A stretch of 64,000 nt of DNA from Armatimonadota bacterium (GCA_031459855.1 JAVKHP010000001.1:1765906-1829905); one strand, 5' to 3'. Positions 5,502-62,640 are shown, counted from the first letter of the stretch. Translations and numbers: made by a program. Notes: a model not told the origin generated them from the letters alone.

Positions 5502-6299
5502 GTGGTGCGCTACGCGGGGCTGGTGGCGCTCGCGGTCTTCACCACGTTCCCGCTGGTGTGGCTGGCGGCGGTGGCGCTGCGGGCCCGCGGCCCGGTCTTT
5601 GGGTTCCCGCCGGCGCTGTGGCCGTGGCCGCCGTCCCTGGTGCACGTCGCCACCGTCTGGCAGACGATGCCGCTGCCGCGGTTCTTCGCCAACACGCTGG
5701 TGCTGGTCGGGGCCGGGGTGGTCCTGCAGGTGACGCTGTGCGCCATGGCGGCCTACCCGCTGGCCCGCATGGAGTTCCCGGGGCGCCGCCTGATCACGGG
5801 GCTACTGCTGGCGACGCTGATGCTGCCCGGGCACATCGGCCTGATCGTCAACTTCGTGACGCTGCTGCGGCTGCGCCTGGTGGACACCTACGCGGGGGTG
5901 GTCCTGCCGGGCGCGGTGAGCGTCTTTGGCATCCTCCTGCTGCGCCAGGCGTTCCTGGCCGTGCCGGCGGACCTGGAAGACGCCGCGCGGCTGGATGGGG
6001 CCTCGGAGTGGACCATCTGGCGACGGGTCATGCTGCCCGTGGTGCGGCCGGCGCTGGCGACGCTCGCGCTGTTCGAGTTCGTCGCCCACTGGAACGCGTT
6101 CCTCTGGCCGCTGGTGGTGCTGAAGTCGCCCGAGAAGTACCCGCTGGCCGTGGGGCTGCTGTACCTGTCGGGGCTGTTCGCCCACAGCACGCGCGCGGTG
6201 GCCGCCGGCGCGGTGCTGATGACGCTGCCGGTGGTGGTGGTGTTCCTGTTCACGCAGCGGTACTTCGTGCGCGGGCTCCTGGTGGGAGCGCTGCGGTGA
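5502..6299 (+). CDS. sugar ABC transporter permease (MalG/UgpE type)
   Basis: The gene encodes 265 residues. The first helix (GLVALAVFTTFPLVWL) and the EAA loop (LEDAARLDGASEWTIWRR) identify the second inner-membrane subunit of a CUT1 importer. The C-terminal QRYFVRGLLVGALR is typical of MalG/UgpE proteins. The start is uncertain: GTG 5502 or the adjacent GTG at 5505, with a possible non-ATG start (CTG at 5472) that would restore a basic N-terminus. The gap to the upstream permease is 34 bases. The stop TGA overlaps a GTG that opens the mini-ORF at 6296. Confidence 0.9.
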   Translation: MVRYAGLVALAVFTTFPLVWLAAVALRARGPVFGFPPALWPWPPSLVHVATVWQTMPLPRFFANTLVLVGAGVVLQVTLCAMAAYPLARMEFPGRRLITGLLLATLMLPGHIGLIVNFVTLLRLRLVDTYAGVVLPGAVSVFGILLLRQAFLAVPADLEDAARLDGASEWTIWRRVMLPVVRPALATLALFEFVAHWNAFLWPLVVLKSPEKYPLAVGLLYLSGLFAHSTRAVAAGAVLMTLPVVVVFLFTQRYFVRGLLVGALR

Positions 6300-6364
6300 A
6301 CGGTCCGCGCGGCACGCTGGACCGCGGCCCTCGCCCCGGACGCCTGGCCGGCGGTGGCGCCTGA
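6296..6364 (+). other. coupling mini-ORF, 22 codons
   Basis: The GTG at 6296 overlaps the permease stop (GTGA) and the ORF ends at a TGA one base before the GTG at 6366. The bases around 6296 (GGAGCGCTGCGGTGAAC) resemble those before 6366 (GGTGGCGCCTGACGTGAAC), offset by 70 bp, consistent with an old tandem duplication of the junction. The peptide has no recognisable domain and may act only by passing ribosomes on. Confidence 0.4.
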
Positions 6365-6365
6365 C

Positions 6366-9264: not shown

Positions 9265-9951
9265 ATGTACGAGGGCGCCGCCGCATCGATCCCTGACCGC
9301 CGCGGGCTGCTGATCGTGAGCCTGCCCCGCAACGACCTGGCCCTGGCCCGGGCCGCGGTCACCGCCGGCGCCGACCTCCTCAAGGTGCACGTCAACGTCG
9401 ACCACCGCGCCGCGCGCGTGCGCTTTGGCTCGCTGGACGACGAGTGGCCGCGCCTGGAGACGATCCTGGGGCTGGGCGTGCCCACGGGCCTCGTGCCCGG
9501 TGAGGAGCAGATGGTGACGCGCGAGGAGGTGCCGCGGTTGCGCCGGTTCGCGTTCCTCGACGCCTACATCACGCGGTTGCCGCTGTTCCTCTACGAGGTG
9601 GGCGTGCCGGTGGTGCCCGCCGTGCCCCACGACTACCCCGTGGCGGCCTACGGGGCGATCGCCGCGCTGCCGGGGGAGTGGCTGGAGGCCGCGCTCGTGC
9701 CGCCGGACGGCTACGGCGCCGAGCCCGTGGCCGACGACCTGGTGGCGCTGGCGCGGCTCGGGCAGGCGACGGGCCGTCGGCTCATCGTGCCCAGCCAGCG
9801 CCGGATGCGCCCCGAGGACCTGCCGCGCTACTTCGCCGTTCCGCACGTGTGGGCGGTGATGATCGGCGCGGTGGTGACGGGACGGACGCCCCGCGCGCTG
9901 GGGCAGGCCACCGAGGCCTTCCGGCGCGGGTTGGACGCGCTGTTCCGGTGA
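9265..9951 (+). CDS. conserved hypothetical protein, TIM-barrel-like
   Basis: The gene encodes 228 residues from an ATG at 9265 with GAGAGGGG just upstream. No family is recognised with certainty. The pattern looks like a (beta/alpha)8 barrel: a strand GLLIVSLPR, a helix ALARAAVTAGADLLKVHVN, a strand VPTGLVPGEEQ, a strand FLDAYITRLPLFL and a late strand ADDLVALARLGQATGRRLIV. The phrase AGADLLKVH is like that of phosphate-sugar barrels such as ThiE, TrpC or KdgA. It follows the FAD oxidoreductase by 26 bases and its stop overlaps the GTG of a mini-ORF. It may be a lyase or epimerase in the same pathway; this is a guess. Confidence 0.6.
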   Translation: MYEGAAASIPDRRGLLIVSLPRNDLALARAAVTAGADLLKVHVNVDHRAARVRFGSLDDEWPRLETILGLGVPTGLVPGEEQMVTREEVPRLRRFAFLDAYITRLPLFLYEVGVPVVPAVPHDYPVAAYGAIAALPGEWLEAALVPPDGYGAEPVADDLVALARLGQATGRRLIVPSQRRMRPEDLPRYFAVPHVWAVMIGAVVTGRTPRALGQATEAFRRGLDALFR

Positions 9952-10073
9952 CCGCCCTGGCCTGCTGGCAGGAGGCGGACGACATGCCCGTGACGTGGTC
10001 CGACGACGACATGAGGGGCTGCGGAAGGACTGCCCGCACGGCGTGCTGGCGCGACGCGCCCGGAGGCGCGTGA
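9948..10073 (+). other. coupling mini-ORF, 41 codons
   Basis: It starts at a GTG overlapping the stop of the TIM-barrel-like gene (GTGA) and ends at a TGA overlapping the GTG at 10070. The end reads DAPGGA, matching the end of the next mini-ORF (HAPGGA). It is the first link in a two-step chain leading to the MFS gene. No domain is seen. Confidence 0.4.
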
Positions 10074-10144
10074 CGGTGCCGAAGCCACGGCCTCGTGCTG
10101 ACGCCGGCCACCGTGCAGGGTGCCACGCCCCCGGAGGCGCATGA
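10070..10144 (+). other. coupling mini-ORF, 24 codons, duplicated start of the MFS gene
   Basis: The sequence GGAGGCGCGTGACGGTGCCG at 10062 recurs as GGAGGCGCATGACGGTGCCG at 10133, 19 of 20 identical and 71 bp apart. The first copy supplies this GTG with its own GGAGG; the second supplies the MFS start. The mini-ORF stop overlaps the MFS ATG (ATGA). It begins VTVP, like the MFS protein (MTVP). Confidence 0.45.
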
Positions 10145-11334
10145 CGGTGCCGGACGATCGCAACCTGCGCTGGCTGTTTGCGGCGCTCTTCCTGTGGACG
10201 TTTGGGCTGGGCCTGTACGAGCAGCTGGTGCCCATCTTCGCGCGCCAGCTCGGGGCCTCGCCGGTGCAGCTCGGCACGCTGTTCAACCTGCGCTACCTGG
10301 GGTTGGCCGCGGGCTACCTGCTCGGCATCGTCGTCGCCGACCGCTGGCGCCGCCGGACCGTCATCGTCGCCTCGTGGGTGGCGGCCACGCCGGTGCCGCT
10401 GCTGCTGGCCGCCGCGCCCACCCACCTGTGGCTGCTGCCGGGCCTGCTGCTGTACGAGGTCACCTTCTTCGGGTTGCCCGCGGTGCACGCGTTCGTCGCC
10501 GAGCGCGTCGCGCCCGACCGCCTGGCGTCCACCTTCGCTGCCATGGGCGTGGTGACGTCGACCGCCTTCCTGGTGGCGCCGACCCTGGGCGGCGTCGTCG
10601 CCGACCGCTGGGGGATTCGCGCGACCCTGCTGCTGGCCGCGGCCTGCTACCTGCTCTCGACCGCGATGGTGCTGCAGGTGCGCGGGGCGCCGCCGGCTCC
10701 GCGTGCGGCGCACGCCGCGGTGCTGCTGACGTGGACGGCGCTGCGCCCGCTGCTGCCCGTGCTCCTGCTGGTCGCGGGACCCGCGGTCGCGGTGCTGGCA
10801 GCAGCGCCGTTCCTCACGCCGTTCCTGCGCGAGGTCCGGGGGCTCTCGCTGTCGGAGATCGGGTTCCTGGGCTCGATGACCGCGGTCGGCGGGGTGGGGC
10901 TCACCGCGATCGGTGGCCGGTTGGGCGACCGGGTGGGTATCGTCCCGGCCCTGGTCGGTGCGCTGCTGGTTTACGCGCTGGGGATGGCCCTGCACGTCTA
11001 CGGCCCGGCGGCGCTGCTGCCGGTAGCGTCGATCCTGCGGGCGCGGGCGCCCGCCGCCGCGCTGGGGCAGGCCCTGGTCGGGGCGCACGCGCCCGCGGAG
11101 GTGCTCGGCCGGGCGTTCGCCGTCTCGGGGATGCTGGCGGCCGGGCTTGCGGCGCTTGGCGTGGTGGTCGGCGGCTATGCCTACCGGGCCGACCCCGTGC
11201 TGCCCGTGGTGCTGGCAGCGGGGCTCGCGGTCGCGCTGGCCGGGGCCGTGCTGTGGGTGCGCCCCGTCCCCGCCGCGGCGGCAACCGCGCGCCGACAGGT
11301 GGCAGAGGCCGCACGCGACGCGCCGGCGCCGTGA
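10141..11334 (+). CDS. MFS transporter
   Basis: The gene encodes 397 residues with about 12 hydrophobic helices in two halves. The loop after helix 2 carries the MFS motif region (VADRWRRRTVIV), repeated in the second half (GGRLGDRVGIVPAL). The N-terminal segment FGLGLYEQLVPIFARQLGASPVQLGTLFNLR is typical of drug/sugar MFS proteins. The ATG at 10141 has GGAGG three bases upstream and overlaps a mini-ORF stop. Last gene of the + operon starting near 2849. The direction and substrate of transport cannot be told from sequence; export of a pathway product is possible. Confidence 0.85.
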   Translation: MTVPDDRNLRWLFAALFLWTFGLGLYEQLVPIFARQLGASPVQLGTLFNLRYLGLAAGYLLGIVVADRWRRRTVIVASWVAATPVPLLLAAAPTHLWLLPGLLLYEVTFFGLPAVHAFVAERVAPDRLASTFAAMGVVTSTAFLVAPTLGGVVADRWGIRATLLLAAACYLLSTAMVLQVRGAPPAPRAAHAAVLLTWTALRPLLPVLLLVAGPAVAVLAAAPFLTPFLREVRGLSLSEIGFLGSMTAVGGVGLTAIGGRLGDRVGIVPALVGALLVYALGMALHVYGPAALLPVASILRARAPAAALGQALVGAHAPAEVLGRAFAVSGMLAAGLAALGVVVGGYAYRADPVLPVVLAAGLAVALAGAVLWVRPVPAAAATARRQVAEAARDAPAP

Positions 11335-13121: not shown

Positions 13122-13127
13122 GGACTT

Positions 13128-13476: not shown

Positions 13477-13587
13477 GCACGCCTCCGGTGTAGTCCTGTG
13501 CTAGCACGCGCCACCGGCCGCGCGCCCTGCGGCCTCCAGCGACCTGCCGCACGCCTCCAGTGCAGCCCCGTGCCAGCAAACGCCACC
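13477..13587 (-). repeat. 72-bp imperfect tandem repeat in the tusA-like leader
   Basis: The 39-base blocks at 13477-13515 and 13549-13587 are 32/39 identical and lie 72 bp apart; similarity extends into the spacer, and a weaker third copy begins near 13409. The period is 24 codons, so the minus-strand frame stays open and in phase with the tusA-like gene (repeating peptide pattern TGLHxRRA). It may be an array of duplicated junction sequence between the carrier gene and the tusA-like gene. Confidence 0.6.
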
Positions 13588-16259: not shown

Positions 16260-17033
16260 TTACGCGCTGAGGCCACCCAACGCTTCCCAGATCCGCCGCT
16301 CGAGGGCCGAGAACTCTGCGGCGAAACGCATCGCGGCGGTCCGCGGGCGGGGGAGGGTGACGTCAACGTGGGCCTTGATGCGCCCGGGCCGTGCCGTGAG
16401 GACCAGCACGCGATCCGCGAGGAAGACCGCCTCCTGGATATCGTGCGTCACCAGGACCACCGTCTTCCGCCGGTGCTCCCACAGGCGGTGCAGCTCCGTC
16501 TGCATCCGCGAGCGCGTTTGCGCGTCCAGCAGACCGAAGGGCTCGTCCAGCAGCAGGATCGATGGATCGGTGGCCAGCACGCGCGCCACCTCGACCATCT
16601 TCCTCATGCCCGCCGACAGCTCTTTGGGATAGGCCCGGGCGTAGGCACCCAGGCCGGTGAACTCCAGCAGCCCGTCGACGATCGCCTGGCGGGCCGCCGC
16701 CCCATCGTCCCGCGCCAGCAGGCCCAGCTCGAGGTTCTCGCGGACGGTCATCCACGGGAAGATCGCCTCCTCCTGGAAGACGTAGCCCCGTTCCGGGCCC
16801 GGTCCGGACACGGGACGGCCCTCGCAGAGGACGCGACCCTCGGTCGGCTGCAGGAGCCCGGCGATGATGCGCAGGAGCGTCGTCTTGCCGCACCCCACGG
16901 GGCCCACGACGGCCAGGAACTCGTGGTCGAAGACCTCCACGCTGACCCCCTCGAGGGCACGGGTCGGCACGCGGCCAGCGTAGGTATGGCCGATACCCGC
17001 GACCGCCAACCGTACCCTACGCGAGATGGGCAT
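16260..17033 (-). CDS. ABC transporter ATP-binding protein (NitT/TauT/SsuB type)
   Basis: The gene encodes 257 residues. Walker A is GPVGCGKTT (the usual Ser replaced by Val), the Q-loop is GYVFQEEAIFPWMTV, the signature is LSAGMRKMVEVAR (LSAGM rather than LSGGQ), Walker B is ILLLDEPFGLLDAQT and the H-loop VTHD. The order and the TARPGRI segment are typical of nitrate/sulfonate/taurine importers. Two permease genes lie upstream at 17078 and 17888. Codons 1-9 are duplicated 61 bp upstream, inside the end of the permease gene. No binding protein is encoded nearby. Confidence 0.9.
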   Translation of the reverse strand: MPISRRVRLAVAGIGHTYAGRVPTRALEGVSVEVFDHEFLAVVGPVGCGKTTLLRIIAGLLQPTEGRVLCEGRPVSGPGPERGYVFQEEAIFPWMTVRENLELGLLARDDGAAARQAIVDGLLEFTGLGAYARAYPKELSAGMRKMVEVARVLATDPSILLLDEPFGLLDAQTRSRMQTELHRLWEHRRKTVVLVTHDIQEAVFLADRVLVLTARPGRIKAHVDVTLPRPRTAAMRFAAEFSALERRIWEALGGLSA

Positions 17034-17099
17034 GGGCCACGGCGCCGCGGGCCGCCGCGTGGGCGACCAACCGTACCCTATGCGAGATGGGCATGGGCC
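17006..17099 (-). repeat. 33-bp direct repeat, 61 bp apart, at the permease-ATPase junction
   Basis: Copies at 17006-17038 and 17067-17099 are 32/33 identical. One copy holds the ATPase start codon and first codons; the other holds the permease stop codon. Before duplication the two genes would have overlapped by about 17 bases. Confidence 0.85.
17017..17094 (-). other. coupling mini-ORF, 25 codons, copy of the ATPase N-terminus
   Basis: The ATG at 17094 lies inside the permease gene and the ORF ends at a TAG inside the first codons of the ATPase gene. It begins MPISHRVRLV (ATPase: MPISRRVRLA) and ends AHAHLA, as does the permease. So it carries the start of one neighbour and the end of the other and overlaps both, keeping the ribosome path unbroken. 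Confidence 0.45.
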
Positions 17100-19115: not shown

Positions 19116-19921
19116 TCACCCCCGGGCCCCCGTGGCGCCCGATGACGATATGACGACGGCGCCGGCGCGGGTGGCGGCCTCGACGGCGGATGGGTGGATC
19201 ACGAAGCCGAAGAGCACAGGCACCGGGGCGCCCGGCAACACCGGGGCGAGGGTCTGGACCTGCCTCCAGAACGCTTCCACGTCCCGGCCGTGGATGCGGC
19301 TCTTCACCTCGCCGACCACTACGATGCGTTCGCCGTCGCGCGTCCCTCGCCGTACAGGTCGACTTCGACCTCTTCACCGTCCACCGTGAGGAAGCGTCGC
19401 TCCAGGGCGCCCACGCGGATCCCGCAGTGTTTCTCGAGGTAGGCGGGAGCGACTTCGCGCGCGAGGTCCTCCAGGGTGAACCCGAGGGTCTCGGCAAGCG
19501 TGCCAAGCTGTCGGGCTGTCTCCCGCTGGGCCTCGGCGAGGCGGTGCATCTCCTCCACGAGTCGGGTAACCTGGCCCTCCGTGCGACGCTGCGCATCGGC
19601 CAGCTGTTCGAGGTGGGTCTCGGTGCGCTGCTGGGCGGCGGCCAGTTGCTCGAGGCGGGTCTCGGTACGCTGCTGGGCGGCGGCCAGCTGTTCGAGGCGG
19701 GTCTCGGTGCGCTGCTGGGCGGCGGCCAGCTGCTCGAGGCGGGTTTCGGTACGCTGCTGGGCGGCGGCCAGCTGCTCCACCCGCACCGCCAGCTGGCGCA
19801 CGATTTCCGGCAGCGAGAGCAGCTCGTCGGTCAGCAGCAGACGGCGCAGTTGGGCCCGCCACTCGGCGCGCTTCTCCAGCGCCCGCAGCAAACCCTCGAA
19901 GTCGCGGAGCGTAAAAGGCAT
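19116..19921 (-). pseudogene. coiled-coil PD-(D/E)XK nuclease-like (DUF3782-like) gene, frameshifted
   Basis: The first part (ATG 19921) encodes a helical start, five 14-residue coiled-coil repeats (residues 48-117, LEQLAAAQQRTETR) and the start of a nuclease-like core with GEEVEVDLYGEG. That frame stops at 19319. The next frame continues at once with VVGEVKSRIHGRDVEAFW and runs to 19116. Joining them gives the expected acid-E-x-K nuclease core, so one base is missing in the CGCGCG run near 19336-19342. This may be a true pseudogene, a sequencing error or, less likely, programmed frameshifting. Such proteins are common in archaea and thermophiles; their role is unknown. Confidence 0.7.
19571..19780 (-). 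repeat. five 42-bp tandem repeats encoding a coiled coil
   Basis: Each 42-bp unit encodes 14 residues of the form LEQLAAAQQRTETR. The central three units are nearly identical at the DNA level, so the array has expanded recently. It lies within the frameshifted nuclease-like gene. Confidence 0.85.
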
Positions 19922-20550: not shown

Positions 20551-20925
20551 CGCAGACAGCTCTCCCGCAGCCAGGAGGTGAGTCTACACCCGATATCAGT
20601 ATCAGTATAGGGGATCTACGGGCGACAAGGGTGGCATTGCCCGGTGTCGCGACTGTTCGGAGCGTTTCCCTGGGTCACCGGGCCGCTACCCACTTTCCTT
20701 GCCCGGGCCGCGCAGGCGCGCTGATGGGGGGCGTGCCTTCGCAGACGGTCACCGGTCGCGCGGGGTTCAGGGCGTGCCGTCCACGGGGCGCTGGGGGCCT
20801 GGGGGTACTCGCACACGTCACCGGTCGCGCCGCGCTCAGGTTCCTCCCGCAGGACAGCGGCAGGGCTCGTCCCAGACGCCAGACGCCGATCAGCTGTCGC
20901 GCTCGGGCAAGTCCTCGGGCGGCAC
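20551..20925. repeat. 375-bp intergenic region with ~70-bp degenerate repeats
   Basis: No gene is supported. GTCACCGGTCGCGC-type blocks at 20748-20771 and 20817-20840 are about 20/24 identical and 69 bp apart; a weaker copy lies near 20673. The sequence GGGGTACTC near 20801 repeats the end of the nucleoside hydrolase gene (GGGGTACTC at 20930, reverse strand). This suggests old tandem copies of that gene's end. A TATACT box on the minus strand near 20609 could serve efp. Confidence 0.45.
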
Positions 20926-30242: not shown

Positions 30243-31115
30243 CTAGTACTCGAACTCGGCCCGGAGCAGCCGGAGCTGCACGCCGGTGAGCACCAGGAGC
30301 GCCGCCACGATCAGCACCGCCAGGGCCGTCGCCCGCCCCCAGTCCAGGAAGACGAAGGCGACGCGGTACGCGTGGAACATGAGCAGCTCCGTCGAGCCGT
30401 GGGGGCCGCCGCCGGTCAGCAGGTAGACCGGGACGAACATCAGGATGTTGATGGCCAGGTCGGCCACCAGCACGAACGCCAGGACGCGGCGCAACAGGGG
30501 AAACGTCACGTCGCGAAACCGCCGCCACGGGGTCGCGCCATCGAGGCTGGCCGCCTCGAGCACGGTGGCGGGGATCTGCTGCAGCCCCGCCAGCAGGAAG
30601 ACCATCCAGTACCCCACGCCCTTCCACGTGGCCAGCACGATGATCGATGCCAGCGCCTGCCGCTCGCTGATGAGGAACGGCTGCGGGGGCAGGCCCAGGC
30701 GGACCAGGATGCCGTTGGCGAGCCCGAGCTGTGGGTTCAGCACCAGGTTCCAGATGATGGCCGTAATGGTCAACGAGACGGTCATCGGCAGGAAGTAGGC
30801 TGTGCGAAAGACCCCTATGGCGGGCACCTGGCGGTTGACCAGGAGGGCGAGGCCCAGGGCGAGGGCGATCTGCAGCGGGTTGATGAGCAGATTGAAGACG
30901 GCGGTCACGCGCGCTGCGTTCCACACCTGGGGATCGGAGAAGATGGCGAGGTAGTTTGCCAGCCCTGCGAACCGCTGCAAGCCGTCCAGGGTCTGCGTGT
31001 GCAGGCTCTGCCACAGCGCCAGGACCATGGGGTAGACCCGGAACACCAGCAGCCCGCCCACCGCCGGCCCGATGAAGAGGTAGGGCAGGAACGCCTCGCG
31101 CCGCCGCAGGCTCAC
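30243..31115 (-). CDS. sugar ABC transporter permease (MalF/UgpA type)
   Basis: The gene encodes 290 residues with six helices. The EAA loop is VLEAASLDGATPWRRFRDV and the late loop LLTGGGPHGSTELLMFHAY. GTG 31115 overlaps the stop of a mini-ORF (GTGA). The start region is duplicated 77 bp upstream, next to the binding-protein stop. Confidence 0.9.
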   Translation of the reverse strand: MSLRRREAFLPYLFIGPAVGGLLVFRVYPMVLALWQSLHTQTLDGLQRFAGLANYLAIFSDPQVWNAARVTAVFNLLINPLQIALALGLALLVNRQVPAIGVFRTAYFLPMTVSLTITAIIWNLVLNPQLGLANGILVRLGLPPQPFLISERQALASIIVLATWKGVGYWMVFLLAGLQQIPATVLEAASLDGATPWRRFRDVTFPLLRRVLAFVLVADLAINILMFVPVYLLTGGGPHGSTELLMFHAYRVAFVFLDWGRATALAVLIVAALLVLTGVQLRLLRAEFEY

Positions 31116-38242: not shown

Positions 38243-38335
38243 CCCCTGCCCTCGGCACTTACGACAACCGGACCGCCGCGGCATCGCCTCACGTCCGTGC
38301 AGTGGGTCCACTCCGCGCATTGGGTGGAGGCCCGG

Positions 38336-38435
38336 GCATCCTCATTCACGTCCATGCATCCTCATCCACGCCCGTACATCCTCATCCACGCCCACGCATC
38401 CTCATTCACACCGGCGCGTCCCCATCCACGCAGGT
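38336..38435. repeat. five 20-bp tandem repeats
   Basis: Five consecutive 20-base units follow the pattern GCATCCTCATYCACGYCCRT, at 38336, 38356, 38376, 38396 and 38416. They lie in the 486-bp gene-free stretch 38243-38728. Unit 5 is the most degenerate. There is no spacer between units and no cas gene nearby, so this is a minisatellite, not CRISPR. Confidence 0.85.
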
Positions 38436-38728: not shown

Positions 38729-39886
38729 ATGGACCGCGCGACCAGGGACGTGTACGGGACGCTGGGCGTACGCCGCGTGATCAACGCGTGCGGGAACATG
38801 ACGCTGCTGGGTGGCTCGCGCCTCTCGCCGCGGGTGCTGGCCGCAATGGCTGCGGCCAACGACGCGTTCGTGGACATGGCCGAGTTGCTCGCGCGCTCGG
38901 GCGAGGCCATCGCGGCGCAGCTGGGGGCCGAGGCCGCCGTCGTGACCTCGGGGTGCTTCGCCGGCCTGGTGCTGGGCGCGGCGGCCATCATGACGGGCGC
39001 GGATCCTGCACGCATCGCCCGGCTGCCCGCCACCGACGGCATGCGCGACGAGTTCCTGATCCAGGCCCCGACCCGCTACCACTACGACCGCGCGGTGACG
39101 GTGCCCGGCGGCCGGCTCGTGCCCGTCGGCGACGCAAACGGCACCACGGCCGCACAACTGGAGGCCGCCATCGGGCCACGTACCGCGGGCATCCTGTACC
39201 TGGCCAAGGCCGAGGGCACGTCGGGCGTGCTGCCGCTGGCCGACGTGGTGGCGATCGCGCGCCGCGCCGGGATCGCGGTGCTCGTCGACGCGGCGGCTGA
39301 GGTGTATCCGCTGGACAGGATGCGCTGGCTGGCCGGTGGCAGCGGCGCCGATCTGGTGTGCTTCGGAGCCAAGTACTTCGGTGCGGTGAACTCGGCGGGC
39401 GTGGTGTGCGGCACCCGCCAGGCGGTCGAGGCCGTGATCCAGAACAACTTCGTCGCCTACGAGAGCGCCGACACCCAGGCGCTTGGCCGCGGCTACAAGG
39501 TCGACCGCCACGAGGTGATCGCCACGGTGGTCGCGCTGGAGGAGTGGTTCGCGCTGGACCACGAGGCGCGCCTGGCCCAGCAGGAGCGGCGCCTGCGGGC
39601 GATCGCGGCGGCGCTGGAGGGCCTCGCTGGCGTGCGGGCCGAGCTCGTCTGGGAGCAGCCCTCGCCCTGGAAGCGCCTGGTCGTCCGCCTGGACGAGGCC
39701 CGGGTGGGGACGACGGCCGCGGCCGTGGAGGCCGCGCTGCGCGAGGGCGAGCCCAGCATTCGCGTGCGCGTCGAGGACCACGCCCTGGTGCTGGCGGCCC
39801 ACACGCTGGACGACGGCGACGTTGAGATCGTCGGCCGGCGCTTGCGCCAGGTGCTGGCCATGGGGGCAGGGGCCGCGGGCGCGTGA
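38729..39886 (+). CDS. SelA-like PLP-dependent enzyme
   Basis: The gene encodes 385 residues. The SelA/DgaE-like fold type I pattern is clear: VRRVINACGNMTLLGGSRLS near the N-terminus, AEAAVVTSGCFAGLVLGAAA, VLVDAAAEVYPLDRM (PLP Asp), and the lysine in VCFGAKYFGAVNSAGVVCG. SelA proper needs tRNA-Sec partners, none seen here, so a catabolic lyase such as D-glucosaminate-6-phosphate ammonia-lyase or a related enzyme is more likely. The ATG has GGAGG eight bases upstream. The stop overlaps a mini-ORF leading to the flavoenzyme gene. Confidence 0.85.
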   Translation: MDRATRDVYGTLGVRRVINACGNMTLLGGSRLSPRVLAAMAAANDAFVDMAELLARSGEAIAAQLGAEAAVVTSGCFAGLVLGAAAIMTGADPARIARLPATDGMRDEFLIQAPTRYHYDRAVTVPGGRLVPVGDANGTTAAQLEAAIGPRTAGILYLAKAEGTSGVLPLADVVAIARRAGIAVLVDAAAEVYPLDRMRWLAGGSGADLVCFGAKYFGAVNSAGVVCGTRQAVEAVIQNNFVAYESADTQALGRGYKVDRHEVIATVVALEEWFALDHEARLAQQERRLRAIAAALEGLAGVRAELVWEQPSPWKRLVVRLDEARVGTTAAAVEAALREGEPSIRVRVEDHALVLAAHTLDDGDVEIVGRRLRQVLAMGAGAAGA

Positions 39887-39954
39887 CCGGCGCGGCGGCG
39901 ATCGGCCTCGACGCCACAGAGCATCCCGCAGGATCGAGGGGCAGCGTGCGGTGA
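39883..39954 (+). other. coupling mini-ORF, 23 codons
   Basis: GTG 39883 overlaps the SelA-like stop (GTGA) and the ORF's TGA overlaps the next GTG at 39951 (GTGA). The two starts are 68 bp apart and both read GTGACC; the bases before them (GGGGCAGGGGCC and GGGGCAGCGTGC) are also alike. This is consistent with a tandem junction duplication. Confidence 0.4.
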
Positions 39955-41078
39955 CCTACGACGTGGTCGTCATCGGTGTGGGCGGGATGGGCAGCGCCGC
40001 CGTCTACCACCTGGCCCGCCGGGGGGCGCGGGTGCTGGGCCTCGAGCAGTTCGACATCCCCCACGACCGCGGTTCCTCCCACGGGGTCACCCGCATCATC
40101 CGCCTGGCCTACTTCGAGGATCCGGCCTACGTGCCGCTGCTGCGTCGCGCGTACGCCCTCTGGCACGAGCTGCAGCACCGGTACGGCGAGCCGCTGCTCT
40201 ACATCACCGGCGCGATCGACGCCGGGCTCCCCGGCAGCGTGACGGTCGAGGGGTCGCTGCGTTCGTGCGCCGTGCATCACCTGCCCCACGAGGTGCTGGA
40301 CGCCGCCACGCTCGGGCGGCGGTACCCCGGCTACCGGCTGGCGCCGGAGATGGTGGCGGTCTACCAGCCCGACGGCGGCTTCGTGCTGTCCGAGCGCGCG
40401 ATCGTGGCCCACGTGATGCTGGCGCAGGCGGCCGGCGCCGAGGTGCACGCCCGCGAGCGGGTGCTAAGCTGGGACCCCGACGGCGGTCAGGTCGTCGTGC
40501 GCACCGACCGCGCCGTCTACCGTGCCCGGCGGCTGGTCGTCACGGCGGGCCCGTGGGCTGGCCGCCTCGTTCCGCGGCTGGCCGCCCTGGCAGTGCCCGA
40601 GCGGCAGGTCCTGCTGTGGGCGCAGCCGCGCCGGCCCGAGCTCTTCCGGCTGGGCGCGTTCCCGGTCTTCAACCTCGAGGCGCCGGAGGGCCGTTTCTAC
40701 GGATTTCCGATCTTCGGCGTCCCGGGCGTCAAGATCGGCAAGTACCACCACCGGCACGAGCGGGTCGACCCGGATGCGGTCTCGCGCGAGGTCACCGCCG
40801 AGGACGAGGCGGTGGTGCGCGAGGGGCTACGCCGCTACTTCCCCGAGGCCGACGGCCCGACCATGGCGATGAAGACGTGTCTGTTCACCAACTCGCCCGA
40901 CGAGCACTTCATCGTCGACCGTCTGCCCGAGGCGCCGCAGGTGTGCGTCGCCGCGGGCTTCTCGGGGCACGGCTACAAGTTCTGCAGCGTGATGGGCGAG
41001 ATCCTGGCCGACCTCGCCCTGGACGGCGCCAGCGCGTTCGACCTGCGCCTGTTCCGCGCGACCCGATTCGAGGCCTGA
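39951..41078 (+). CDS. sarcosine oxidase / N-methyltryptophan oxidase-like flavoenzyme
   Basis: The gene encodes 375 residues. It has the dinucleotide motif VVVIGVGGMGSAAVYHLARR at residues 5-24, DRGSSHGVTRIIRLAY (a family signature) and MKTCLFTNSPDEHFIVDRLP, in which the Cys is the site of covalent FAD attachment in monomeric sarcosine oxidase. GFSGHGYKF near the C-terminus completes the family pattern. It oxidises N-methyl amino acids or similar secondary amines with oxygen. It is coupled to the SelA-like gene, so the two may act on the same amino compound. Confidence 0.92.
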   Translation: MTYDVVVIGVGGMGSAAVYHLARRGARVLGLEQFDIPHDRGSSHGVTRIIRLAYFEDPAYVPLLRRAYALWHELQHRYGEPLLYITGAIDAGLPGSVTVEGSLRSCAVHHLPHEVLDAATLGRRYPGYRLAPEMVAVYQPDGGFVLSERAIVAHVMLAQAAGAEVHARERVLSWDPDGGQVVVRTDRAVYRARRLVVTAGPWAGRLVPRLAALAVPERQVLLWAQPRRPELFRLGAFPVFNLEAPEGRFYGFPIFGVPGVKIGKYHHRHERVDPDAVSREVTAEDEAVVREGLRRYFPEADGPTMAMKTCLFTNSPDEHFIVDRLPEAPQVCVAAGFSGHGYKFCSVMGEILADLALDGASAFDLRLFRATRFEA

Positions 41079-48240: not shown

Positions 48241-48311
48241 GCGGCGCGGCAGCGGCAGCCCCGGGCGCCCCGAATCGCCGCAGGGGAGGGAGTGCACCGT
48301 GGAGGCCATGA
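48237..48311 (+). other. coupling mini-ORF, 24 codons, between lutA and lutB
   Basis: ATG 48237 overlaps the lutA stop (ATGA); the TGA of the mini-ORF overlaps the ATG at 48308 (ATGA), which is in frame with LutB. Both starts read ATGAGC, 71 bp apart, and both follow a GTGCACC...GGCC stretch. Confidence 0.45.
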
Positions 48312-49789
48312 GCCCCGTCCAGGCCACTGGTGGCGGCAGCCAGCCGGTGGCCGTCCCAGACGCCGGCGACCACGCCGTGCAGCCGCGCATCGACGTGCGC
48401 GGCAACCTAGCGCGCGCGCTGCGTGACCCCACGCTGCAAACCGCGCTCGGCCGGGCGCTGCCGGGGTTCCGGCGCATGCGGGCCGGCGCGGTGGCCGAGG
48501 TGCCCGAGTGGGAGTCGCTGCGCCAGCTCGCTGCCCAGATCAAGGACCACACCCTGGCCCACCTCGACCGCTACCTCGCGCAGCTGGAGGCTGCCGTCGC
48601 GACCGCGGGCGGCCAGGTGCACTGGGCGGACGATGCGGTCGAGGCGCGACGCGTCATCGTCGCCCTGGCGCGGGCACGCGGGGTGCAGCGCGTGGTGAAG
48701 AGCAAGTCCATGGTCACCGAGGAGATCGGCCTGAACGCCGCGCTGGAGGCCGCGGGCGTGCGGGTGGTCGAGACCGACCTGGGCGAGTACGTGCTGCAGC
48801 TCGCCGGCGAGGCCCCCAGCCACCTCATCGCCCCGATGCTGCACAAGCCCATCGAGGCTGTCAGCGAGCTGTTCGCCGCCAGGCTGGGCGCACCGCGCTC
48901 CACCCGGGCCGAGGAGCTGAACCGGGTGGCCCGCACGGCGCTGCGGGGCGAGTTCCTGGCCGCCCCGATGGGCATCACCGGCGTCAACTTCGCGGTGGCC
49001 GAGACCGGCACGCTCGTGCTGGTGGAGAACGAGGGCAACGCGCGCCTGGTCACCGCGTGCCCGCGCATCCACGTGGCGGTGATGGGCATCGAGAAGGTGC
49101 TGCCGCGCCTGGCCGATCTGGGAGTCTTCCTGCGGCTGCTGGCCCGCAGTGCCACCGGGCAGCGCGCCAGCGTCTACGTCTCGCTGCTGACCGGGCCGCG
49201 GCGGCCCGGCGAGACCGACGGCCCCGAGGAGCTGCACCTGGTGCTGGTGGACAACGGCCGCACGCGCCTGCTGGCCGATCCGGACCTGCGCGAGGCGCTG
49301 CGGTGCATTCGCTGCGGCGCCTGCCTCAACGTCTGCCCCATCTTCGAGCGCGCCGGCGGGCACGCCTACGGCTCGGTGTACGCCGGGCCGATCGGCGCCG
49401 TGCTCACGCCGGCCCTGTGGGGACTCGAACCCGCGCACGAGCTGCCCTTCGCCAGCACGCTGTGCGGCGCGTGCGGCGAGGTGTGTCCGGTGCGCATCGA
49501 CCTGCCCCGGCTGCTGCTGGAGCTGCGGGCCCGGGCGGTGCGTGCGGGCCTGGTCGACCGCACGGATCGCCTGGTGGCCCGTCTGTGGACGTCCGTTATG
49601 CGCAGCCCCACGCGCCTCCAGCTGGCCGGGTGGCTCGCGCGGGTGCTCCAGTGGCCGCTGGTACGCCACGGCCGCATCGACTGGCTCCCCCCGCCGCTGG
49701 CAGGGTGGACCGCGTACCGCAGCGCGCCGCCGCTGGCGGCGGTGCCGTTCCGGGCGCGCTGGCGGCTGCGGCGAGGATCCGGCGCGTGA
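48308..49789 (+). CDS. lutB: LutB-type iron-sulfur protein
   Basis: The gene encodes about 493 residues. The LUD domain runs from about residue 60 to 300 (KSKSMVTEEIGLNAALEAAG, GITGVNFAVAETGTLVLVEN). Two 4Fe-4S motifs follow: CIRCGACLNVCPIF and CGACGEVCPVRIDLP. It is the electron-carrying subunit of lactate oxidation. Two starts are possible: ATG 48308, coupled to the mini-ORF, and GTG 48299, with GGAGGG upstream; the first is preferred because of the ATGA overlap. The stop overlaps the next mini-ORF. Confidence 0.94.
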   Translation: MSPVQATGGGSQPVAVPDAGDHAVQPRIDVRGNLARALRDPTLQTALGRALPGFRRMRAGAVAEVPEWESLRQLAAQIKDHTLAHLDRYLAQLEAAVATAGGQVHWADDAVEARRVIVALARARGVQRVVKSKSMVTEEIGLNAALEAAGVRVVETDLGEYVLQLAGEAPSHLIAPMLHKPIEAVSELFAARLGAPRSTRAEELNRVARTALRGEFLAAPMGITGVNFAVAETGTLVLVENEGNARLVTACPRIHVAVMGIEKVLPRLADLGVFLRLLARSATGQRASVYVSLLTGPRRPGETDGPEELHLVLVDNGRTRLLADPDLREALRCIRCGACLNVCPIFERAGGHAYGSVYAGPIGAVLTPALWGLEPAHELPFASTLCGACGEVCPVRIDLPRLLLELRARAVRAGLVDRTDRLVARLWTSVMRSPTRLQLAGWLARVLQWPLVRHGRIDWLPPPLAGWTAYRSAPPLAAVPFRARWRLRRGSGA

Positions 49790-49887
49790 CCGGCGGGCGC
49801 ACGGCGTCTTTGGTGCCGGGGCGCGTGTGGCGTGCGGCCCTCACGGCGGGGTGCTGCCGGCACCACCGCGGAGGATCGCGCGCGTGA
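49786..49887 (+). other. coupling mini-ORF, 33 codons, between lutB and lutC
   Basis: GTG 49786 overlaps the lutB stop and the TGA overlaps the lutC GTG at 49884, both as GTGA. The sequence around the first (GCGAGGATCCGGCGCGTGA) is repeated before the second (GGAGGATCGCGCGCGTGA), 98 bp apart. The mini-ORF thus ends like LutB (GSRA against GSGA). Confidence 0.45.
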
Positions 49888-50642
49888 GCCGCGACGGCGT
49901 GCTGGGCCGCGTGCGGGCCGCGCTGGCGGCGGCGCGGGCGCAGGACACCGCGCGCGGCGCTGCTGCAGCGCCGATGGAGCTCCCGGCGCTTCCCGCTGCC
50001 CAGGCGCTGGCGGACCCGGTCGGCCTGTTCGTCGAGCGTGGCCGCGCCGTGGCCGCCACGGTGGAGGTCTGCGCGTCGGTGGATGACGCGGCAGCGCAGG
50101 CCGCGGCATGGCTCGCCGGCCGTGGAGCCCAGCGCCTCGCCGCCTGGGACGATCCAGAGATCTGGGCAGTGGTGGCCCAGCTGGCTGCCCGCGGTTTCGA
50201 GGTCGTCGCACCCGGCGCGCCGGTCGAGGTGGTGGCGCAGGCCGATGCCGGGCTCACCGGCGCGGCGTGGGGCATCGCCGAGAGCGCGTCGCTGGTGCTG
50301 CCCGCCGACCGGCGGCGCCCGCGGACATTCTCGCTGCTGCCGCCGCTGCACGTGGCGGTGCTGCGCGCCGACCGCATCGTGCCCGACCTGGCCGCGTGGT
50401 GTGCGCGGCTCGCTGCGGAAGAGCAGCTGGGTGGCGCTGGTCGTCCGGGTGCTGGCCCTCCGGATGCTGGTCCTCCGGGTGCCGGTGCCCTTTCGGGTGC
50501 TGCTGCAGGCGGGGGCGCGAAGCTGCCGTCGGCGCTGGCGCTCGTCACGGGCCCAAGCCGCAGCGCCGACATCGGGCTGGTGCCGGTGCAGGGTGCCCAC
50601 GGGCCGATGGAGGTCGCGGTGTTCGTGGTGCCGGGCCCGTGA
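49884..50642 (+). CDS. lutC: LutC-type LUD-domain protein
   Basis: The gene encodes 252 residues. The LUD fold is seen in the late strands: GAAWGIAESASLVLPAD, SLLPPLHVAVLRADRIVPDL and the end ALALVTGPSRSADIGLVPVQGAHGP, very close to LutC/YkgG. It completes the lactate oxidation complex. GTG 49884 has GGAGG nine bases upstream. Between the last two helices and strands is an extra Gly/Pro/Ala stretch made by 15-bp DNA repeats. Confidence 0.92.
   Translation: MSRDGVLGRVRAALAAARAQDTARGAAAAPMELPALPAAQALADPVGLFVERGRAVAATVEVCASVDDAAAQAAAWLAGRGAQRLAAWDDPEIWAVVAQLAARGFEVVAPGAPVEVVAQADAGLTGAAWGIAESASLVLPADRRRPRTFSLLPPLHVAVLRADRIVPDLAAWCARLAAEEQLGGAGRPGAGPPDAGPPGAGALSGAAAGGGAKLPSALALVTGPSRSADIGLVPVQGAHGPMEVAVFVVPGP
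50436..50480 (+). repeat. three 15-bp in-frame repeats in lutC
   Basis: Units at 50436, 50451 and 50466 follow GCTGGTCCTCCGGGT with two or three changes. They encode a short Gly-Ala-Gly-Pro-Pro run between helices of LutC that relatives lack. Confidence 0.75.
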
Positions 50643-55650: not shown

Positions 55651-56700
55651 CTAGCGCCCGCCCGCCCGCGGGCCCTCGCGCAACCCCTCGGCCACGCCTT
55701 GGTAGTACGCCCGCCAGATCAGGTGGTTGTAGCACTCGCTGCACAGCGGCAGGAGCTGGTGCCGCTCGGCCCACGGCAGCACCGCCCGGACCACCCGCGC
55801 GCCGACGCCGGTCCGGTAGACCAGCCACTTGAGCGGCAGCAGCACGGGATGGATCTCGGCCAGCAGCGCCAGGCTGTGCGGGCGGCCGTGCTTGCGCCAG
55901 AGGTAGACGGCGTTGCGGCCGGCTTCGCGTTGCCGGCGCATCACGGCAGCCAGGTCGAGCACGTGGACGTGCCGCACGACCGCCGCGGGCTCGTAGACGA
56001 TGCGCACACCGGCGCGCTTCAGGCGGTAGGCGAGGTCCAGGTCCTCGAAGCCATACCCGCGGAACGTCTCGTCGAAGCCCCCGACCGCCGCGAACGCCTC
56101 CCGTGCCACCGAGAAGTTGCGCGCGGCGACGTGGGCGTACGAGAGGTCGTCGCGTCGGCGGGGTGCCAGGTCGGGGAGCAGGTAGTAGGCGCGCATGAAG
56201 GTGGACTGCAGCGTGGCAGGGTCCTGCACCGTCCGGCCCTGGACCGCCAGCAGCGCGCCGCCGCGGTAGTGCCGGAGGTGGGCGGCGACGAGCCCCGGCG
56301 CGAGGCGCAGGTCGGGATCGAGGAAGAGGAGGACGCGGCCCCGCGCCACGCGCGCGGCACGGTTCCGGGCGACGGCGAGGCCCTGGTTGCGTTGACGGAG
56401 GACGCGCACCGGGTGCGGGTGCGCCAGCCCGTCCAGCATCTCGGCCGTGCCGTCGGTGGAGCCGTCGTCCACCACCACGATCTCGAACGCGCCCTCCTGC
56501 GCGGCCAGATCGGCGAGCAACGCCGCCAGCTGGTCCCGACAGTTGTACGTCGAGACGACGATGCTCGCGTCGAGCTCCGCTGCAGGCGCGGGCGGGCCGG
56601 CTGCGCGCTCCGTGTAGGCGACCGCGCCGGGGTGCCCGGGCGTATCCGGGGCGCGAGCGCTCACGGCGGGTCGCCGGCGGTGCCCGGGTGTGACGCTCAC
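55651..56700 (-). CDS. family 2 glycosyltransferase
   Basis: The gene encodes up to 349 residues. GT2 motifs: ASIVVSTYNCRDQLAALLAD, IVVVDDGSTDGTAEML, RNQGLAVARNRAARVARG, LLFLDPDLRLAPG (the DxD-like metal site) and GFDETFRGYGFEDLDLAYRL with the catalytic acid. It transfers a sugar from a nucleotide donor, probably to a cell-surface glycan. The first 45 residues are low-complexity with a repeated TPGH unit and may come from junction duplication; a start further in is possible. GTG 56700 overlaps a mini-ORF stop. Confidence 0.9.
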   Translation of the reverse strand: MSVTPGHRRRPAVSARAPDTPGHPGAVAYTERAAGPPAPAAELDASIVVSTYNCRDQLAALLADLAAQEGAFEIVVVDDGSTDGTAEMLDGLAHPHPVRVLRQRNQGLAVARNRAARVARGRVLLFLDPDLRLAPGLVAAHLRHYRGGALLAVQGRTVQDPATLQSTFMRAYYLLPDLAPRRRDDLSYAHVAARNFSVAREAFAAVGGFDETFRGYGFEDLDLAYRLKRAGVRIVYEPAAVVRHVHVLDLAAVMRRQREAGRNAVYLWRKHGRPHSLALLAEIHPVLLPLKWLVYRTGVGARVVRAVLPWAERHQLLPLCSECYNHLIWRAYYQGVAEGLREGPRAGGR

Positions 56701-56771
56701 AGCGGGTACCTCGTCGTCGCGGGTGCGCGTCGTGATCGTGATCGCCGGTGCTGGTCGGGTGCGGCCCTCAT
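56697..56771 (-). other. coupling mini-ORF, 24 codons, between SDR and GT2 genes
   Basis: ATG 56771 overlaps the SDR stop (ATGA) and the TGA overlaps the GT2 GTG (GTGA), 71 bp apart. It begins MRAAPDQHRRS, reminiscent of the GT2 start (MSVTPGHRRRP), and ends RYPL, like the SDR end (RFSPPL). Confidence 0.45.
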
Positions 56772-57559
56772 AGCGGCGGGCTGAACCGACCGTCCACGGC
56801 GGTCCAGCCGCCGTCCACCAGCAGCAGCGACCCCGTGACGTAGCTGGCGGCGTCGGACGCCAGGAAGACGATGGGGCCGGCGATCTCGTCCGGGCTCGCC
56901 CAGCGGCCCAGTGCTGGCTTGGCCGCGTAGGCCCGGTACCACTCGGGGTGGGCCTTGATCGGCGCCGTGAGCGGGGTCTCGACCACGCCGGGTGCCACGG
57001 CGTTCACGCGCACGCCCTGCGGTCCCAGCTCGGCCGCCAGCGCCCGCACCAGCTGGAGCAGCCCGGCCTTCGTTGCCGCGTAGACCCCCTGGCCGGGTTC
57101 GACGACGAGCGCGCGGATCGACGACAGCACGATGATGCTGCCGCGGCCCCGCGGGGCCATCACCGCACCGGCTGCCCGCATCAGTCGGAAGTTGCCCTTC
57201 AGGTTGACCAGCACGACGCGGTCGAACTCCTCGTCGGTGTACCGCAGCAGCGGTTTCCGGACGTTGATGCCGGGCGTGACGACGGCGACGTCGAGCGCGC
57301 CCCAGCGCGCCACGACACGGTCGACCACGTCGGCAGCGCTCGCCGGATCGGTGACGTCGACGGGCTCGGCCTCGGCCTGCCCGCCGTCCTGCTGGATCGC
57401 CGCGGCCACGGCCCGGGCGCCGTCGAGGTTGAGGTCGGCGACGACGACCCGCGCGCCGTGGGCCGCCAGGGCCCGGGCGGCCGCCGCGCCGATGCCCGAG
57501 GCGCCGCCAGCGACCAGCGCCACCCGGTCGTCCAGCCGAAAGAGCCGTCGGTAGTCCAC
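56768..57559 (-). CDS. short-chain dehydrogenase/reductase (SDR)
   Basis: The gene encodes about 263 residues. The cofactor motif is VALVAGGASGIGAAAARALA and the acidic strand end VVVADLNLDGA suggests NAD. The catalytic set is IVLSSIRALV (Ser), VYAATKAGLLQLVRAL (YxxxK), and the C-terminal SYVTGSLLLVDGGW is typical. GTG 57559 is chosen since AGGAGG lies nine bases upstream; GTG 57568 would touch the SD. A copy of the 3' end of the M20 peptidase gene lies directly upstream, which suggests that SDR and M20 once formed one operon. Confidence 0.92.
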   Translation of the reverse strand: MDYRRLFRLDDRVALVAGGASGIGAAAARALAAHGARVVVADLNLDGARAVAAAIQQDGGQAEAEPVDVTDPASAADVVDRVVARWGALDVAVVTPGINVRKPLLRYTDEEFDRVVLVNLKGNFRLMRAAGAVMAPRGRGSIIVLSSIRALVVEPGQGVYAATKAGLLQLVRALAAELGPQGVRVNAVAPGVVETPLTAPIKAHPEWYRAYAAKPALGRWASPDEIAGPIVFLASDAASYVTGSLLLVDGGWTAVDGRFSPPL

Positions 57560-60520: not shown

Positions 60521-61688
60521 CGATGGCCACGTACTCGTCGACCTGGTGGGGCAGCTCGCGCTTCCCCGGTCCGATGGTGACGATCGGGAGGCCGCCCCAC
60601 GCGTGCAGGAATGTGCCGTCGGTGGCGCCCGGCACACCGCCGTAGCGCGCGGGCCGACCCAGCGCCACTTCGCACGCCCGCGCTACCGCCTGCACGATCG
60701 GCGCGTCGGCGGGCGTTGCGATCCACGGGCGGTCCTCGACCAGCTCGAGGCGGATCGCCGCCCGCGGGTCGCCGGCGCGAGTGCCCTCGGCCAGCGCCTC
60801 CATGGCCGCCAGCACCGCCGCGTGGTCCTGCCCGGGCACGGTGCGTACGTCGACCGTGACCTGCGCCTCGCCCGCCATGACGTTGAACTGCGGCTCGCCG
60901 TGGACCGGGGCGCGCATCGTGGTGGGCGTCACGTGGGGCAGGCCCAGGAACGGATGGCTGCCCACGCGCGCCTGTTCCCGGTGCTCGAGCTCGCCCAGGC
61001 CCAGCACGAACTGCGCCGCCCACGGGATGGGGTTGGCGCCCGCGTAGGGCATGGCTCCGTGGGCCATCTTGCCGACGAACGTGGCCAGCACACGCATGGC
61101 GCCTTTCTGGTACAGGCAGAGCTCGTTCTCCTCGGGCTCGCACACCACCGCCGCGTCGAACCCCTGGCAGCCTCCGGCGCGCACGAACGCCTTCACGCCC
61201 AGCATCAGGCCTTCCTCGTCGGCGAGCGCTGCCAGCCGCACGCGTCCCGGCAGGTCGGGCACGGTGCGGCGGACAGCGTCGAGTGCCACGATCGCCGCCG
61301 CCAGCCCGCCCTTCATGTCGCACGCCCCGCGGCCCCAGATGCGCCCGTCGGCCACGACGGCGTCGAAGGGCGGGTAGGTCCAGGCGGCTGGGTCGCCCTC
61401 GGTCACCACGTCGGTGTGGCCTTCGAGGATCAGGCCGCGGCCGGGCCGGCCGGTCTCCCAGTCGGCGACCACGTTGGGACGGCCGGGGGCTGCCAGGGAG
61501 GTCGACACCATGAGGCCCCGCGCGCGGAGGTCCTCGGCGAGGTACGCCGCGACCGCGGCCTCCGTGCCGGCGGGGTCCCCCGGGCGGATCACGCTGGGGA
61601 TGCGCACGAGCGCGCACGTCAGCGCCACCACCTCGTCGGGATCCACGGCCGCGGCGGCGCGCGCCGCCAGCTCGCGCAGCGCGCTCAC
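60441..61688 (-). CDS. M20-family metallopeptidase (ArgE/DapE-like)
   Basis: The gene encodes 415 residues. Zinc-site motifs are LEGHTDVVTEGDPAAW, WGRGACDMKGGLAAAIVAL, DEEGLMLGVKAF and CEPEENELCLY; the dimerisation domain follows (KMAHGAMPYAGANPI), and the last ligand is in GATDGTFLHAWGGLPIVTIG. It hydrolyses amide bonds of N-acyl amino acids or small peptides, consistent with the dipeptide importer upstream. GTG 61688 overlaps the permease stop (GTGA). Its last 26 codons are duplicated at 57591. Confidence 0.93.
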   Translation of the reverse strand: MSALRELAARAAAAVDPDEVVALTCALVRIPSVIRPGDPAGTEAAVAAYLAEDLRARGLMVSTSLAAPGRPNVVADWETGRPGRGLILEGHTDVVTEGDPAAWTYPPFDAVVADGRIWGRGACDMKGGLAAAIVALDAVRRTVPDLPGRVRLAALADEEGLMLGVKAFVRAGGCQGFDAAVVCEPEENELCLYQKGAMRVLATFVGKMAHGAMPYAGANPIPWAAQFVLGLGELEHREQARVGSHPFLGLPHVTPTTMRAPVHGEPQFNVMAGEAQVTVDVRTVPGQDHAAVLAAMEALAEGTRAGDPRAAIRLELVEDRPWIATPADAPIVQAVARACEVALGRPARYGGVPGATDGTFLHAWGGLPIVTIGPGKRELPHQVDEYVAIDELVAAARLYAATIVYYLGAGEEDAP

Positions 61689-62572
61689 GGCCCGGCCCCG
61701 CCCCGCAGCCGGGGATCCAGCAGGTCGCGCAGGCCGTCGCCCAGCAGGTTGAAGCCCAGGACGGCTGCCGCGATGGTCACCCCGGGCCAGATCGCCATCC
61801 ACCACGCGATGAAGAGCACGTCGCGCGCCTCCTGCAGCATGCCGCCCCACGACGGGGTGGGCGGCTGCGTGCCCAGGCCCAGGTAGCTGAGCGACGCCTC
61901 GGCCAGCACCGCGCCCGAGAACGCCACCGTGCCCTGGATCAGCAGCGGCCCGGCGATGTTGGGCAGCACGTGGCGGGCGACGATGCGCCCCTCCGGCGCG
62001 CCAAGCGCGCGCGCTGCCAGCACGAACTCCTGGTGGCGGACGGCCAGCGTCTGCGCGCGGCTCAAACGCGCGAAGATCGGCACCAGCACGATCCCGATGG
62101 CGACCATCGCCTGCACGTGGCCCGGGCCCAGCGCCGCGATCATCATCACGGCCAGCAGCAGGGCCGGGAACGCCAGCAGCCCGTCCATGACGCGCATGAC
62201 CACGCTGTCGAGCGCTCCGCCGCGGAAGCCCGCCACGAGCCCCAGCGGTACGCCCGTCCCCGCGCCGATCAGCACCGCGGTGGCGCCCACGGCCATCGCC
62301 ACGCGGCCGCCGTGCAGCAGCCGGCTGGCGACGTCGCGGCCCAGGCGGTCGGTGCCCAGCAGGTGGCCGCCGCCAGGCGGTGCGAGCCGCCCCGCCGGAT
62401 CCACGGCCGTGGGATCGTAGGGCGCCAGCCAGGGCGCTCCCAGCGCCAGCACCACCAGCGTCGTCACCAGCGCCCCGCCGGCCACCAGCGGCGGGTTCAG
62501 CCGGCGCCGGCGCGGGGGCGCGGGCCGGCCGCGTGCGAGCGGAAGGCGGAGCGCGGACGGCGGCGTGGTCAT
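61685..62572 (-). CDS. peptide/nickel-type ABC permease (DppC)
   Basis: The gene encodes 295 residues. The N-terminal helix is followed by LLGTDRLGRDVASRLLHGGR, the DppC signature, and the docking loop EFVLAARALGAPEGRIVARH. A C-terminal GDGLRDLLDPRLRG is characteristic. It forms the importer channel with the DppB protein. ATG 62572 overlaps the stop of a mini-ORF (ATGA). Confidence 0.94.
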   Translation of the reverse strand: MTTPPSALRLPLARGRPAPPRRRRLNPPLVAGGALVTTLVVLALGAPWLAPYDPTAVDPAGRLAPPGGGHLLGTDRLGRDVASRLLHGGRVAMAVGATAVLIGAGTGVPLGLVAGFRGGALDSVVMRVMDGLLAFPALLLAVMMIAALGPGHVQAMVAIGIVLVPIFARLSRAQTLAVRHQEFVLAARALGAPEGRIVARHVLPNIAGPLLIQGTVAFSGAVLAEASLSYLGLGTQPPTPSWGGMLQEARDVLFIAWWMAIWPGVTIAAAVLGFNLLGDGLRDLLDPRLRGGAGP

Positions 62573-62640
62573 GCGTAGCTATTGGTGCAGGTGCTGGCAC
62601 CACGCACGAGCGGGCAGCGGGCGGACGGTCGCGTGGTCAC
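62569..62640 (-). other. coupling mini-ORF, 23 codons, copy of the DppC N-terminus
   Basis: GTG 62640 lies two bases after the DppB stop; the TGA overlaps the DppC ATG. It begins VTTRPSARCPLVRG, against MTTPPSALRLPLARG in DppC, so it is a diverged copy of the first 14 codons. GCGGACGG blocks at 62553 and 62621 mark a 68-bp duplication. Confidence 0.5.

Follow-up and report, generated by a model that had tools for sequence, protein, structure and literature searches.

A bacterium of the phylum Armatimonadota appears to carry, scattered over its chromosome, a large set of short direct duplications that are very probably the scars of off-target CRISPR (clustered regularly interspaced short palindromic repeats) spacer integration, that is, of neo-CRISPR events. 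We analyzed a window of 64,000 nucleotides (GCA_031459855.1 JAVKHP010000001.1:1765906-1829905) of its 3.19-Mb genome (~72% GC), in which a first-pass annotation had noticed that at about nine co-directional gene junctions the end of the upstream gene and the start of the downstream gene are present twice, with a mini-ORF (open reading frame) between the copies, and had proposed tandem duplications of which only those that keep ribosomes coupled survive. Genes were called in the window and in 40 further 20-kb stretches with a caller trained on Pfam-supported genes, and 20 extra stretches brought the sample to 1.26 Mb (~40% of the genome), small overlaps and a true CRISPR array included. The array and the overlapping stretches were left out when units were counted by spacer type, and the array was left out of the search for insert sources.

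To measure doubling, we compared the block around the upstream stop with the block around the downstream start at 165 co-directional junctions with gaps of 40–160 bp, using blocks swapped between junctions as the control. Real pairs reached a score of ≥11 in 7.3% of cases versus 1.3% for swapped pairs, and a score of ≥14 in 4.2% versus none. Junction doubling exceeds chance, at about 6–7% of such co-directional junctions, which bears out the similarity that the first-pass annotation had reported. The individual junctions on its list fared unequally. Doubling is clear at 17094, 31192 and 56771, where in each case 0 of 470 swapped pairs reached the real similarity, and at 10070; it is weaker, and probable, at 62640 (score 15), the last two both being recovered by the gene-free scan described below. 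At 49786 (period 98, p = 0.013) and 39883 (p = 0.02) it is nominal only, and at 6296, 9948 and 48237 self-similarity did not exceed that of swapped junction pairs. The mini-ORFs exist between the copies as they had been described.

A scan for two-copy repeats outside genes, made with no use of gene calls, placed these junctions in a larger set. In the 1.26 Mb it recovered about 75 units, with 25 at period 60–62, 33 at 70–74 and 18 more at 67–69 and 75–79; the flanking period ranges (40–57 and 80–99) held about 0.2–0.6 units per period, and Markov-simulated sequence gave no units at score ≥17. Scaled from the sample, roughly 150–190 units are expected in the whole genome. Inside genes, 97 of 100 repeat periods were multiples of three. 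The intergenic units fall into two classes, of which class A consists of a 28-bp duplicate and a 33-bp insert (period 61) and class B of a ~36-bp duplicate and a 35–36-bp insert (period 70–74). When averaged, the two copies matched at 0.8–0.9 over ~28 (class A) or ~36 (class B) positions, and the match then fell to a background of ~0.30 on both sides, including the insert. Because the box of similarity covers only half of the period, the units have the arrangement target copy, insert, target copy and are not head-to-tail tandem duplications, in which similarity would run through the whole period. What they share with neo-CRISPR events is the pair of direct local copies of CRISPR-repeat length around an insert of spacer length (28 + 33, or ~36 + 35/36). 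The units that we could place in the window are the following, with no strand assigned except where one is given.

17006-17038 (genes on the - strand): class A target-site copy 1 (true duplicate ~28 bp), at the downstream gene start; 97% identical to 17067-17099, period 61
17039-17066: class A insert, 33–34 nt including bases common to the copies; 100% identical to the coding stretch C1:574372-574399 (L051:14372-14399), the match continuing to 34 nt
17067-17099: class A target-site copy 2, at the upstream gene stop; assigned by similarity to copy 1
10048-10083: class B target-site copy 1 (~36 bp), containing GTGA (start/stop overlap); gene-free scan, 10048-10081/10119-10152, period 71
10084-10118: class B insert, 35 nt; 94% identical over 36 nt to the coding stretch C1:821537-821573 (L101)
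10119-10154: class B target-site copy 2, with the MFS gene start at 10141; gene-free scan
31109-31148: class B-like target-site copy 1, period 77
31149-31185: insert, 37 nt, no source assigned; from the match profile
31186-31225: class B-like target-site copy 2, at the upstream gene stop, period 77
56671-56705: class B target-site copy 1, period 71
56706-56741: insert, 36 nt, no source assigned; from the match profile
56742-56776: class B target-site copy 2, period 71
62545-62574: probable class B target-site copy 1, period 68, score 15
62575-62612: insert, no source assigned; from the match profile
62613-62642: probable class B target-site copy 2; gene-free scan
13477-13587: class B unit in a wide spacer, beyond the junctions first listed; copies 13477-13515/13549-13587, period 72
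20748-20840: possible class B unit, period 69
1344-1447: possible class B unit, period 72, 78%

That the units are remnants of decayed ordinary CRISPR arrays is hardly credible, even though their length equals that of array units. An array has several identical repeats with a leader; here each site has only two, diverged copies of a 'repeat' that is local gene-end sequence, different from site to site, and no common repeat was seen. A separate reading of the interval 9951-10141, as the relic of a deleted intervening gene, was also set aside: relatives have a gene of ~1 kb there that is lost here, and the doubled block and sourced insert fit integration better.

Among ~80 inserts, at least four are matched, nearly end to end, by sequence elsewhere in the genome, the count being a lower bound because the whole-genome searches, run on concatenated inserts, scored at most 40 candidates. 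The matching inserts are window 17039-17066 (100%, to 34 nt), window 10084-10118 (94%), L044:5061-5094 (97%) and L040:19757-19798 (35 nt at 97%), and the sources of the first three lie inside called genes. In a control, the same local search found sources for three inserts versus 0 of 503 flanking 36-mers; L053 and L101 are overlapping stretches, and the match of one to the other was discarded. Judged by these matches, the inserts are at least partly derived from the cell's own genes. A comparison of 16 recent inserts with phage records gave no match. At the edge of the insert the four sources carry what look like protospacer-adjacent motifs (PAMs), namely AAG in one class A case and AGG in the other, and TTC in both class B cases, as read with source boundaries placed by hand, point changes allowed and the class B duplication taken as 36. 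Specifically, the source of 17039-17066 is flanked by AAG on the - strand and that of 10084-10118 by TTC. With the duplication set to 36, the sourced class B inserts are 35 and 36 nt long.

Self-DNA inserts flanked by duplicated target could also be accounted for by filler-DNA repair, in which long overhangs at staggered breaks are filled in and the ends are joined with captured genomic fragments (end-joining). Such repair predicts variable lengths, whereas the units obey two fixed rulers (28 + 33 and 36 + 35/36) and have boundary PAMs of two CRISPR subtypes, which makes this origin very improbable.

We therefore favor off-target spacer integration, which would proceed as follows. A Cas1-Cas2-type integrase would join a fragment of ~33 nt (class A) or ~35–36 nt (class B) to the two strands of the target at points separated by 28 or 36 bp; the gaps would then be filled, which would leave the target site duplicated on both sides of the fragment. 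Most of the surviving scars are found between genes; at an operon junction the upstream stop and the downstream start would be copied together and neither gene broken, as the upstream gene would keep the first stop and the downstream gene the second start, with the span from the first start to the second stop forming the mini-ORF. That the first residues of the mini-ORF echo the downstream protein and the last ones the upstream protein would then be a mechanical consequence of the duplicated 28–36-bp target. The doubled junction sequence and the mini-ORFs of the first-pass annotation stand, as the mechanical result of an insertion, while the cause it gave for them, tandem duplication retained for ribosome coupling, does not.

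Head-to-tail duplication of gene junctions, kept since the mini-ORF couples ribosomes, does draw on two real observations, the excess of doubled junctions over swapped pairs and a bias in reading frame: of 21 co-directional units that reach the upstream stop, 8 have a mini-ORF that connects to the downstream start, whereas moving the insert by +1 or +2 leaves 2 such cases for each shift. This preference is inflated, since in-frame cases merged into longer downstream genes, and the number of units is small. The duplication reading also leaves unexplained why similarity stops halfway through the period and why inserts copy distant loci. Nor are the units confined to co-directional junctions and one frame class, as expected of leader ORFs that serve coupling; they occur at 0.40 per kb of co-directional spacer, 0.33 per kb of divergent spacer and 0.76 per kb of convergent spacer, and their retention therefore does not depend on ribosome coupling. 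Nearly all of the distances had been reported as 2 modulo 3, a rule that breaks down genome-wide: class B periods of 70–74 (score ≥14) are distributed 12:11:10 over classes 0, 1 and 2, the class A period of 61 belongs to class 1, 17094 is itself a case of 61, and 6296 measures 70 (class 1). We consider this explanation very unlikely. Of the coupling idea there survives the weak frame preference; that survivors were filtered so that ribosomes remained coupled is possible and weakly supported.

Which enzymes might have written the two classes can be approached through the cas genes. The genome has its own type I-E locus (cas3, cas8e, cas7e, cas6e, cas2e and cas1) and the following array.

L100:9361-12430 (C1:2884361-2887430): type I-E array, 50 repeats of 29 nt, unit 61–62

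An AAG PAM, a 33-bp protospacer and a G that joins the repeat are properties of type I-E (PMC10011333). Class A was probably made by the cell's own I-E adaptation module, given the 61-bp geometry of its array, the I-E-type PAM at the two best sources and the repeat-like targets: class A target sites agree with the I-E repeat at 14.95 of 28 positions, versus 13.24 for controls (sd 1.31, n = 20) and 12.94 for class B. In the array itself, just 28 of 48 spacers have a G after the 28-nt repeat core, which would fit acquisition of many of them without a canonical PAM.

For class B, the ~36-bp duplication, the 35–36-nt insert and the two TTC motifs point to an I-G-like module that was presumably once present and has since been lost or reduced. 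In Methanosarcina barkeri the I-G Cas4/1 protein cuts at GAA, the complement of TTC (PMC10274657). Two relatives of the same order have such systems, one (G036) with an I-G Cas4-Cas1 and Cas2g and the other (G038) with an I-G Cas4-Cas1, in both cases beside arrays of 36-nt repeats with a unit of 71–73. Class B target sites showed no resemblance to the I-G repeats of these relatives, and no I-G-like repeat pattern was found in the genome itself. Adaptation genes of the matching subtype are thus present for class A (I-E), and none were found for class B.

The only other cas1 in the genome is a stand-alone gene, for which no nearby array and no cas2 or cas4 partner was found.

L099:14900-16477 (C1:1959900-1961477), - strand: stand-alone cas1, 525–592 aa, beside a DNA methyltransferase gene

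Its product keeps the presumed catalytic residues E174/H257/D269 and has a CxxC zinc-finger and a helix-turn-helix-like C-terminal tail. Relatives of 38–72% identity occur in bins labelled Acidobacteria, Chloroflexi, Eremiobacterota and others, the 72% identical one being a Cas1 fragment in a bin labelled Armatimonadota. Being the only other candidate of its family, this Cas1 might be the dispersed integrase that made class B, a proposal that we consider improbable. Twelve loci from other genomes that carry the stand-alone Cas1 (170 kb) had no units of period 70–74, where about 4–5 would be expected at the rate of the present genome; and in known I-G systems it is the Cas4 domain that picks the TTC-type PAM (PMC10274657), a domain that this protein lacks. 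The most plausible origin of class B is therefore an I-G-like module that has been lost, and the stand-alone Cas1 is the less likely author.

Neither period peak had any units in the relatives G006, G004, G002/8/10, G011 and G018 (1.29 Mb sampled), in which the noncoding DNA sampled was smaller (111 kb vs 167 kb in the present genome). Nor were units found, after removal of true arrays, in ~450 kb from Thermus pTT27 (four stretches), a Deinococcus megaplasmid (two) and E. coli K-12 (three), all of them CRISPR-bearing.

Several results weigh against off-target integration as the source of the units. Since units are missing from the Cas1-bearing G011 and G018 and from the other CRISPR-bearing replicons, the explanation requires a factor particular to this genome. 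A firm source was found for only four of ~80 inserts, which leaves ~76 without a source and their PAM uncheckable, and two weaker class A sources (87–91%) have no clear PAM. Searched de novo for motifs, the target sites of neither class yielded a significant one. The class B set lies partly off its period (67–69 and 75–79), and these units require later indels. Finally, a search of the genome for cas4 and for cas2 of family PF09827 found none, so the class B enzyme was not identified.

In the open-access literature we found no natural genome that holds many dispersed units of this kind. Integration outside an array reportedly duplicated local repeat-length sequence in the work of Nivala, Shipman and Church in 2018. 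Such non-canonical integration of spacers outside arrays is known (Nivala et al., 2018, Nat Microbiol 3:310-318, via PMC11788318, PMC9456107 and PMC11687729), and PMC11788318 presents it as the result of Cas1-Cas2 overexpression. The present units resemble those events in that a spacer-sized fragment sits outside an array with local repeat-length sequence duplicated, and differ in that dozens occur in one natural chromosome, in two subtype geometries, mostly between genes and partly old. They also resemble type I-E adaptation in its E. coli model (28/29-nt repeat, 32/33-nt spacer, unit 61, AAG PAM with a G entering the insert), except that the target is the chromosome at large rather than the leader end of an array, with one unit per site. 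Type I-G adaptation, as in M. barkeri (PMC10274657) and the arrays of G036 and G038, shares the ~36-nt duplication, the 35–37-nt insert and the TTC/GAA PAM; here, unlike there, the units are single and dispersed and no I-G adaptation genes were found in the genome. Casposons and Cas1-solo elements likewise involve a Cas1-family integrase outside CRISPR arrays. Casposon target duplications are about 14–15 bp and the cargo is a transposon, whereas here a 33–36-bp genomic insert lies between duplications of 28–36 bp.

The prevailing view of off-target writing by Cas1-Cas2 is that it is a rare side reaction, observed chiefly when the proteins are overexpressed. If the scars are what we take them to be, a natural chromosome with perhaps 150–190 of them would make CRISPR adaptation a real source of intergenic DNA, short ORFs and altered operon spacing, and would document how two subtypes choose target sites and PAMs in vivo, besides offering a means to detect lost adaptation systems. 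The rule used to detect them (a half-period similarity box, a fixed ruler and a source PAM) is applicable to any genome. A bolder version, which we hold to be doubtful, is that adaptation acts here as a chronic, chromosome-wide mutator, with two integrases, one perhaps the stand-alone Cas1, no longer tied to an array, writing self-derived 33–36-nt fragments between genes, reshaping operon junctions and leaving behind a dated trace of an immune system since lost.

The remaining junctions of the window that had been listed with coordinates are these.

6300-6365, + strand: junction insertion of ~66–70 bp relative to relatives with overlapping genes; self-similarity too decayed to class
49750-49900, + strand: junction doubling of neither class, period 98, nominal only
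39863-39970, + strand: junction doubling, period about 68, nominal only (p = 0.02)

At the first of these (the 6296 junction, with genes at 6299/6366) the genome has ~70 bp more than its relatives, and in G006, G002 and G008 the two genes overlap as GTGA. In another relative, G003, the equivalent of window 6299 (L070 ~3953-3982) has an independent 29-bp insertion with a 10-codon bridging ORF and neither CRISPR geometry; it looks as though the GTGA/ATGA overlap had undergone a short tandem duplication. At the junction of G004 equivalent to window 53671 (L080:1226-1307), a 67-bp insertion lengthens the downstream gene in frame, and its GTG start overlaps the upstream stop, an example of an in-frame product that annotation conceals in a longer gene.

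Two sites of the sample, L059:9459-9705 and L039:399-569, are long tandem arrays of period 73 bp in which the interval is repeated too, and are thus true tandem repeats; the two copies of a class B unit may have recombined by unequal crossing-over to produce them. The window also has ordinary tandem repeats, of 20/40 bp at 38330-38431 and of 42 bp at 19597-19777. At 48299-48400, a LUD-domain protein is ~25 residues longer N-terminally than its relatives, perhaps by a further in-frame insertion.

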